From assembly GCA_027063755.1 (NCBI GenBank), contig JAMORD010000210.1, positions 1-16,394 of the forward strand: a stretch of 16,394 nt of DNA, given 5' to 3'. Shown piece by piece: positions 755 through 4,393 of the stretch. The notes under the pieces were generated by a model. The model searched no databases, had not been told where the DNA came from, and was given only the letters and a program-made list of their open reading frames with translations. Each line of letters opens with the position of its first letter. The stretch's first letter is position 1. The position numbers and the translations under genes are program-made. This DNA is from a bacterium (GTDB lineage: Bacteria > Coprothermobacterota > Coprothermobacteria > Coprothermobacterales > JAADFF01).

Positions 755-2275
755 TTACTGACCTCCTTTCTCCAGGTAGGCAGTCAGTGCTTCTTCTATC
801 TTTTTCTGTCTTGTAGCACCGATACCACGAACAGTAGATATAGAACCATCATCTACCATGGCCTTTAGTTTGGCTACAGTATCAATGCCGGCAGACTTCA
901 ATATCTTCGCAAGAGTATCATCAAGTCCAAGCACATCAATAGATGCGTCCTCTGATACACTCTCGGCACTTACTGCCTCTGCATCTTCTTTAGCTCCAGT
1001 GTAAGACTGAATAACTTCAATAATCTTTTGGGCCCTGCTCTGGCCAATACCTTTTATATCTGTTAGCTTACCCTGATTTATCAGCTCAACAAGCTGTCCT
1101 ATGGTCTCAATACCAGCCTTTCTGAGATTCTTCTCCACTGGAGAGCCCAATTTGAGTACACTTATATCTTCATTAAGCTTATCGTCTTGGGCAACCTCAA
1201 CCTTTGTCTCGGTAGCTGTCTCAACAAAAAGCTCTTCTCCTCTTTCTTTGAGCCAGCGTTCCAGTGCTTCAATAATAGACTCTTTTCTCTTTGCACCAAT
1301 ATGAGGTATATGGTCAAGGCCACCAGAACGGGTAATGTCTATAAGTTCTTCAATGGTATCAATACCATGCCTCTGTAATATCTCTGCAACAAGGTCAGGC
1401 AAACCAAGCTCAGTAAGAGGTGTACGAGACTGAATATGCATCTGAACTTGCTGCTGAGTTTCCTCACTACGCGTATGATACTTTTCCACAGCATCGTCAA
1501 GCATATCAAACAATGTCAGTCTATCTCGCATAATGGCCACTGCCTCTTTAAGGGCATCAATGGCCGTAACAGAACGGTCAGTCCAAATCTCCATCACAAG
1601 CTGATCGTACTTAGAAGACTTACCCACACGGGCAGGTACAACTTTATATGCAACTCTCTTAACAGGAGAGAAAAAAGCATCAATGAAAATGATGTCTCTT
1701 CCGGCGTGCATAAAATTATCGGTAGAAGTAGCATCAATGGTGATATAGTCCCTAATGTGAGCACCACCCGGAGTAATCTCGGCAAAGTGCTCTTTCACTT
1801 CTTCATCTGTCATATAACCGCGACCTTTGGCAACAAATATTTCCATCTTTACCTCAATAGGTTCGGTTATCTCAAACAGGTGAAGATCACCATTGATTAC
1901 CTCTACATCAGCAGAGCGGCTTATATCAGAGGCCCTGACAACAGCAGGGCCTGTCTTAGATATATACAGGGTCTTAAAATCACTATCTTCAAGTTTGACA
2001 ACAAGGTTTTTCAGATTCATAGTAATCTGAAGACCATCTTCGTATATACCTTCAAGAGATGTGAATTCATGGTAAAACCCACTAAGCTTATACGCTATAG
2101 GAGCTGCTCCTTCAATAGAAGAGAGAAGCACTCTTCTTAGCATATTACCTATAGTAATACCATACCCCTCGTTAAGGGGACCTATGCTGATACGAGCATA
2201 GTTGTACCCCTTCTCAGGGTCATCATACATCTCTTCTACTTTTAAGTTTATATCAGAAAGCGGTATAAGTTCCAT
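755..2275 (-). CDS. rpoA: RNA polymerase alpha subunit with three C-terminal HhH modules
   Basis: The alpha subunit dimerises to scaffold RNA polymerase assembly. At 506 residues it is far longer than the usual 315-330. The N-terminal domain is recognisable: GYNYARISIGPLNEGYGITI, the dimerisation helix NMLRRVLLSS at 44-53, KGRGYMTDEE, DAFFSPVKRVAYKVVPARVG and YDQLVMEIWTD. Between GRGYM (151-155) and DAFFSP (199-204) there are about 25 more residues than in E. coli or Bacillus alpha. After the linker come three alpha-CTD-like helix-hairpin-helix modules at about 286-345, 371-426 and 446-503. Each holds a GI[DE]T[IV] segment and an IG..R or IGAKR hairpin. They are joined by acidic linkers of about 20-25 residues. 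The ATG at 2275 follows a GAGGGGGTG ribosome binding site. The reading frame is intact, so this is not a frameshift or assembly fusion that I can see. Its place between rpsD and rplQ is normal for the alpha operon. Confidence 0.98.
   Translation of the reverse strand: MELIPLSDINLKVEEMYDDPEKGYNYARISIGPLNEGYGITIGNMLRRVLLSSIEGAAPIAYKLSGFYHEFTSLEGIYEDGLQITMNLKNLVVKLEDSDFKTLYISKTGPAVVRASDISRSADVEVINGDLHLFEITEPIEVKMEIFVAKGRGYMTDEEVKEHFAEITPGGAHIRDYITIDATSTDNFMHAGRDIIFIDAFFSPVKRVAYKVVPARVGKSSKYDQLVMEIWTDRSVTAIDALKEAVAIMRDRLTLFDMLDDAVEKYHTRSEETQQQVQMHIQSRTPLTELGLPDLVAEILQRHGIDTIEELIDITRSGGLDHIPHIGAKRKESIIEALERWLKERGEELFVETATETKVEVAQDDKLNEDISVLKLGSPVEKNLRKAGIETIGQLVELINQGKLTDIKGIGQSRAQKIIEVIQSYTGAKEDAEAVSAESVSEDASIDVLGLDDTLAKILKSAGIDTVAKLKAMVDDGSISTVRGIGATRQKKIEEALTAYLEKGGQ
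767..1420 (-). repeat. Three tandem alpha-CTD-like modules within rpoA
   Basis: These are protein-level repeats. Module 1 is at 1241-1420, with LTELGLPDLVAEIL, HGIDTIEELI and IPHIGAKRKESIIEALE. Module 2 is at 998-1165, with ISVLKLGSPVEKNL, AGIETIGQLV and IKGIGQSRAQKIIEVI. Module 3 is at 767-940, with IDVLGLDDTLAKIL, AGIDTVAKLK and VRGIGATRQKKIEEAL. All share the layout L.L......L...GI.T...L......G.[LI]..I..IG..R...I.E.[IL], and each is about 56-60 residues, the size of one alpha-CTD. Modules 2 and 3 look more alike in the hairpin (GIG..R) than module 1 (HIGAKR). Identity is moderate, so the duplication looks old. Confidence 0.85.
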
Positions 2276-3867: not shown

Positions 3868-4131
3868 CTAACCAATCCTGTAAGTTATACGGCCTTTCTC
3901 CAAGTCATAAGGAGAAATCTCTACTTTGACCCTATCGCCTTCAACAACCCTGATGTAGTTCATTCGCATCTTTCCCGAAAGATAAGCAATAATCGTAATA
4001 CCATTGTCAAGTTTCACCCTAAAGTGGGCATTAGGCAGGGCCTCCACAACAACGCCTTCCATTTCGAAAAATTCCTTCTTTTTCTCGCCGCTCTGCTGTT
4101 TGGGTTTTTTATTCTTCTTTGCCTTTCCCAC
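3868..4131 (-). CDS. infA: Translation initiation factor IF-1
   Basis: IF-1 blocks the A site of the 30S subunit during initiation. The S1-like OB fold is clear: [40 protein letters not shown] and [16 protein letters not shown]. The family is normally about 72 residues; here 87 are predicted from GTG at 4131 because of a lysine-rich N-terminal extension ([18 protein letters not shown]). I prefer GTG 4131: it follows the KOW gene stop after one base and has GGGTGG 6 bases upstream. An in-frame ATG at 4155 would give 95 residues and a 23-base overlap, but it has no visible ribosome binding site. The reading frame cannot extend further because of an upstream TGA. The identity is certain, the exact start is not. 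Confidence 0.93.
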
Positions 4132-4132
4132 C

Positions 4133-4393
4133 TCAGGCCACCCTACCTCTCTCATTGAGTTTTTTCAGCACGCCATCAACCTCCTTAAAAATTAATCTGT
4201 CAAAATGCATGTTCACTTTTTGAACATGTCTCATATTTTTTCGCTTTAGGCGCTTCATACCATGCTTAGGCCCAGCAAGATACAAAAAGCGCCCGCAGCG
4301 ATCAACGACAACATAAAAAGTACCAACATCCTTCCCAGCTATTGATTTGACAACATCACCCACTTTATATCTACTACCTGTCGCACTATGCAC
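4133..4393 (-). CDS. KOW-domain RNA-binding protein (L14e-like)
   Basis: This is a small basic protein with one KOW motif: [20 protein letters not shown], followed by [20 protein letters not shown] and NMRHVQKV. It resembles the uncharacterised KOW/ribosomal-L14e-like family found between map and infA in many Bacillota, probably an RNA- or ribosome-binding protein; the function is not established. I choose GTG at 4393 (86 residues, M(V)[11 protein letters not shown]), 12 bases after GGAGGT. A longer TTG start at 4429 would leave no space for a leader after the promoter proposed at 4430-4458. The gene ends in TGA at 4133, one base before the preferred infA start. The family assignment is good, the start moderate. 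Confidence 0.8.

Follow-up and report, generated by a model that had tools for sequence, protein, structure and literature searches.

The window analysed here is a stretch of 16,394 nucleotides, in which rpoA, the gene of the RNA polymerase alpha subunit, occupies positions 755-2275 on the minus strand. Its frame of 506 residues runs uninterrupted from an ATG start to the stop, as had been claimed in the original prediction, and the ribosome-binding-like stretch GAGGGGGTG lies 6-14 bases 5′ of the ATG. The genes on the 5′ side are rpsD, rpsK, and rpsM, and on the 3′ side rplQ is found together with an ECF/CbiO-type ATPase (names read from the sequences). By these names, the locus order rpsK-rpsD-rpoA-rplQ, with rpoA between rpsD and rplQ, is the normal order of the alpha operon. 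The encoded protein exceeds the cut-offs of the RpoA family models NF003519 (302 bits) and TIGR02027 (275 bits), and it is the sole copy, as a single RNA_pol_A_bac (PF01000) match is present per genome in both the source genome (G000) and G001. By all the marks tested save the number of its C-terminal domains (CTDs), this protein is RpoA. In the same window, the IF-1 frame (3868-4155, minus strand, read by eye) has an apparent basic N-terminal extension of about 20 residues, if the listed ATG is the true start. The features of the rpoA frame are the following:

755..2275, minus strand: rpoA, RNA polymerase alpha subunit (NF003519, TIGR02027; single RNA_pol_A_bac match)
1517..2275, minus strand: alpha-NTD (dimerisation and insert domains), residues 1-253 (PF01193, PF01000; AlphaFold2 mostly 71-92, except at the ends and the insertion)
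1694..1780, minus strand: genus-specific loop insertion of the alpha-NTD, residues 166-194 (loop length comparison; 0 amino acid changes; low pLDDT)
1421..1495, minus strand: linker between the NTD and module 1, residues 261-285, predicted partly helical (AlphaFold2; dN/dS 0.13)
1238..1429, minus strand: alpha-CTD module 1, residues 283-346 (PF03118 24.2 bits alone; 7vpd_S Z 9.2; dN/dS 0.03)
1187..1237, minus strand: acidic linker between modules 1 and 2, residues 347-363 (residues 346-370: 60% interspecies identity, dN/dS 0.13)
992..1186, minus strand: alpha-CTD module 2, residues 364-428 (PF03118 25.1 bits alone; 9dvt_A Z 9.7; dN/dS 0.07)
962..991, minus strand: acidic linker between modules 2 and 3, residues 429-438 (pLDDT <50; residues 427-445, dN/dS 0.25)
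767..961, minus strand: alpha-CTD module 3, residues 439-503 (sister-family CTD profile 38 bits; 8y5t_A2 Z 8.7; dN/dS 0.11; PF03118 13.5 bits)

Three helix-hairpin-helix modules had been proposed at residues 286-345, 371-426, and 446-503, and their placement agrees with the bounds given above, all of them C-terminal to the alpha-NTD. The whole protein yields three PF03118 stretches in hmmscan (E 7e-14). When the modules are scanned singly, modules 1 and 2 (24.2 and 25.1 bits) exceed the PF03118 cut-off of 23.8 bits and module 3 (13.5 bits) falls below it, so that Pfam by itself supports two modules; the third is supported by profile comparison, fold, and phylogeny. With a profile of the alpha-CTDs of other bacteria, all three modules score 22-26 bits, as against 9.8 bits for the best decoy helix-hairpin-helix protein of relatives. 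In a small database, each module retrieves both others with E values of 1e-7 to 1e-12, a likeness beyond chance, and the pairwise identity among them is only about 35-38%. Module 2 is over the cut-off of PF14520 (HHH_5), a generic helix-hairpin-helix model, and has some affinity to a PolX-like protein (27-30 bits). None of the modules is net basic, the acidic and basic residues numbering 12 versus 9 in module 1 and 9 versus 9 in each of modules 2 and 3. The linkers are acidic, as had been supposed, with D/E to K/R counts of 9:2 in 25 residues and 6:1 in 19.

The fold was predicted by AlphaFold2 for the tail alone (two sequences; mean pLDDT 75) and for the whole chain (18 sequences; mean pLDDT 78), and both models show three compact helical modules, mostly at pLDDT 70-90, with low-confidence linkers. 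The pTM is low (0.35 for the tail and 0.46 for the whole chain), and the relative placement of the modules is thus not predicted. By VIA-align, module 1 superposes on the alpha-CTD of S. coelicolor (7vpd_S) with Z 9.2 and an rmsd of 1.5 Å over 57 residues, module 2 on that of Synechococcus (9dvt_A) with Z 9.7 and 1.4 Å over 62 residues, and module 3 on that of E. coli (8y5t_A2) with Z 8.7 and 1.8 Å over 63 residues. Modules 2 and 3, on whose fold the original prediction had been staked, therefore both superpose, as predicted models, on solved alpha-CTDs. Rad51-type helix-hairpin-helix domains superpose on the model about as well as alpha-CTDs do, and the fold by itself is hence proof of neither kinship nor function. 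A Foldseek search with the predicted model gave no match at E 0.001 or better.

The alpha-NTD is over the cut-offs of PF01193 (69.5 bits) and PF01000 (77.3 bits). Its loop from the GYxPAE motif to the FSP motif comprises 42 residues, compared with 15-20 in 29 single-CTD relatives, which amounts to an insertion of about 25 residues. Between the two species of the genus, the inserted stretch of 29 residues differs by 8 silent codon changes and no amino acid change, and it is devoid of a confident predicted structure (pLDDT <50 at residues 171-192). An element unchanged in sequence yet unstructured in the model suggests a candidate binding element. In E. coli alpha, residues near this loop are contacted by CRP.

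The second species, G001, is the sole other genome of the genus compared. Its contig JAADFF010000094.1, deposited under the label “Dictyoglomota bacterium isolate L_MetaBat.91”, encodes an RpoA of 507 residues which is 93% identical and has the same three modules. The dN/dS between the two species, a rough ratio because the synonymous distance is high in parts, is 0.016 for the NTD, 0.03, 0.07, and 0.11 for modules 1, 2, and 3, and 0.13-0.25 for the linkers; over residues 346-370, between modules 1 and 2, just 60% of the positions are identical. Constrained modules joined by freer linkers are the pattern that would be expected of three working domains. The chance that the tail is an artefact of assembly or gene calling, or a fusion of helix-hairpin-helix domains from an unrelated protein, is negligible. 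The source genome is indeed a fragmented draft of 251 contigs, and modules 2 and 3 are also matched by generic helix-hairpin-helix models. However, an independent species has this architecture and differs at many silent sites, which rules out an assembly artefact, and the only direct DNA repeat of the region is one 30-nt pair with 77% identity; this near-absence of repeats indicates that the module copies are old and that neither collapse nor expansion of repeats is involved. A fusion of unrelated domains is ruled out for all modules by the alpha-CTD profile, which exceeds the decoys by at least 12 bits, and the modules cluster with the sister-family alpha-CTD.

In the alpha-CTD, R265 touches the minor groove of the UP element (PMC3828302). 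In the alignment to the E. coli alpha-CTD, the position of R265 is occupied by Leu, Pro, and Thr in modules 1, 2, and 3, respectively, with no Arg anywhere at 264-266, and that of N268 by Glu, Lys, and Lys. The sister family of the same order has Ala at 265 and Thr at 268. Among relatives outside the order, Arg is found at 265 in 24 of 24 and Asn at 268 in 21 of 24. That R265 is lacking in the sister family as well as in every module had been missed previously. As for the second hairpin, a GIGxxR-type motif is common to the modules and the canonical residues are kept in part: G296 is retained in each of the six modules (three per species), K298 is found in module 1 only, and S299 is replaced by Arg in every module and also in the sister family. 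Such a hairpin would suit the docking of proteins or contacts with the DNA backbone that lack sequence specificity. As originally proposed, six modules per alpha dimer stand as anatomy, but the accompanying idea of a longer classical reach on UP elements is weakened, since a simple gain of such reach is unlikely when R265 is absent from all modules. Classical UP-element reading was probably lost before the triplication, and the loss of canonical UP-element reading may be order-wide. All five single CTDs of the sister family (G002-G006) lack R265 and have Arg at the neighbouring position 264, and a one-residue shift is possible there.

The distribution of the architecture was surveyed in 290 genomes of some 220 families, 284 of which have a PF03118 match, and those with at least two matches were checked singly. 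Both triple-CTD genomes, as positive controls, show two PF03118 matches each. Outside the genus, no RpoA frame with two PF03118 matches was found among the 284 positive genomes, although the survey model may miss a very diverged extra CTD, as it does with module 3. In the genomes with at least two matches, the extra ones lie outside the RpoA frame, and a further rpoA-like frame, again with a single CTD, is present in each of G243, G252, G263, and G092. Further long RpoA frames (G025, G042, G058, G187, G252, G354, G278, G145, and G261) were rejected as candidates, as each has a single CTD, accompanied by a charged tail or an upstream extension of the frame. Within the order, the sister family is represented by five genomes, whose RpoA frames measure 319-330 residues with one CTD each. 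In the surveyed data, CTD triplication appears to be limited to this genus. No report of multiple CTDs in RpoA was found in the open-access papers searched, in keeping with the original prediction, in which the single CTD was taken as standard and a triplicated form as not known to be described.

The modules seem most closely related among themselves and to the one alpha-CTD of the sister family. A profile of the sister-family CTDs scores 38 bits on module 3, 34-35 on module 2, and 20-21 on module 1. In the tree, the six modules of the two species and the five sister-family CTDs fall on one side of a branch with a support of 94/86, which is below the strict mark. Rival duplication orders (58 columns) have AU p values of 0.39-0.49, and a single clade of modules is not distinguished from module 3 as the original. 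Alignment with the triple tail divides the sister-family CTD between two modules, its start (SDEKL...) falling on module 2 and its end (...AYLE.GG) on module 3; the structure alignment with sister CTDs was set aside because MAFFT split them in this way. Such a split is expected of tandem copies and fits the tandem duplication of one ancestral CTD, module 1 having diverged the most. Most likely, the triple CTD arose by tandem copying from an ancestor resembling the single CTD of the sister family, after the loss of R265-type DNA reading.

The single-CTD RpoA of E. coli, B. subtilis, and Thermus shares with the RpoA of this genus the alpha-NTD, the locus between rpsD and rplQ, the alpha-CTD fold, and a flexible linker. 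The latter differs in having three CTDs without R265 and N268, a loop longer by one residue before the second hairpin, the GIGxxR hairpin, and the NTD insertion of about 25 residues. The sister-family RpoA resembles it in a CTD with Ala in place of R265, a GIGA.R hairpin, and an AYLEGG-like C-terminal end, with its profile matching modules 3 and 2 best; in contrast, it has one CTD, a frame of 319-330 residues, and a normal NTD loop of 17-18 residues. The polymerase of Francisella also carries nonidentical CTDs, but these belong to a heterodimer of two different alpha subunits encoded by two rpoA genes (PMC3294249) rather than to tandem modules in one chain. What is new in the RpoA of this genus is the presence of three CTDs with R265 lost, for which no description was found in the open-access papers searched.

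In its contacts with promoters or partners, the polymerase of the genus probably departs from the textbook enzymes, and the question is what the three modules may do. The reading given most weight, tentatively and at somewhat less than an even chance, is that of a flexible multivalent arm, in which the three modules would act together through several weak contacts. The helix-hairpin-helix hairpin (GIG..R) of every module would grip the DNA backbone, and the alpha dimer would make up to six low-specificity contacts on the DNA upstream of the promoter. Strength would come from the number of contacts and not from the reading of the AT-rich minor groove by R265, and the surfaces that differ between the modules would be left free for regulators and other partners. 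Against such an arm, the loss of both R265 and N268 means that DNA binding by the modules may be gone altogether, and the modules are not net basic. The alternative that the extra modules are protein docking sites ranks close behind and is a real but lesser possibility: having lost R265, the alpha-CTD of this order would have turned into a base to which activators, elongation factors, or the ribosome could dock, and triplication and divergence would have made of it three different sockets. R265 and N268 are already gone in the single-CTD sister family, the modules are only about 35-38% identical yet each is well conserved between the species, which suggests distinct roles, and the NTD insertion is fully conserved as well. 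In other bacteria, the alpha-CTD binds Spx and NusA (PMC2801614; PMC13374769). Docking accounts less readily for a backbone-gripping hairpin in all modules; moreover, a PF14520 search of the NusA contig of the sister species gave no match, and NusA there, a frame of 389 residues, has no helix-hairpin-helix repeats detectable by this model, leaving the E. coli contact between the NusA repeat and the alpha-CTD with no obvious counterpart.

It is improbable that the copies are a neutral expansion of a tolerant tail domain, with no new function and one active module. The triple CTD is carried by just two species of one genus, and the constraint declines from module 1 to module 3; however, purifying selection acts on all three after long mutual divergence and the linkers evolve faster, whereas unused copies would decay. 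Neutral retention is therefore less likely than either the multivalent arm or the docking platform. A broader proposal, on balance doubtful, is that the lineage abandoned the reading of UP elements through R265 and that contact with upstream DNA, or the docking of regulators, was rebuilt on a multivalent arm of three diverged CTDs in each alpha and six in the enzyme, along with the conserved NTD insertion, which would be a promoter-contact logic undescribed in bacteria. Few components of bacterial transcription are as conserved as the alpha subunit, whose plan of one NTD and one CTD is treated as fixed. A natural polymerase with six CTDs raises directly the question of how the number and spacing of CTDs affect promoter strength and activator use. 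In addition, the lack of R265 in all members of the order seen would test how dispensable UP-element recognition is.

Tandem alpha-CTDs, two per chain, were also encountered in proteins other than RpoA, namely, TPR proteins in G143 and G280 and frames in G037, G184, and G202. Unlike the RpoA of this genus, they lack an alpha-NTD, Arg is retained at the position of R265 (LSVRS) in those read out, and the genome has a gene for a normal RpoA at another place. The TPR proteins of G143 and G280, which end in two canonical alpha-CTDs with this Arg, could mimic or compete with the RNA polymerase alpha subunit. In G202 (C3:1272200-1275400), two N-terminal alpha-CTD-like domains are followed by a region in which a sigma-like DNA-binding motif was recognized by eye.
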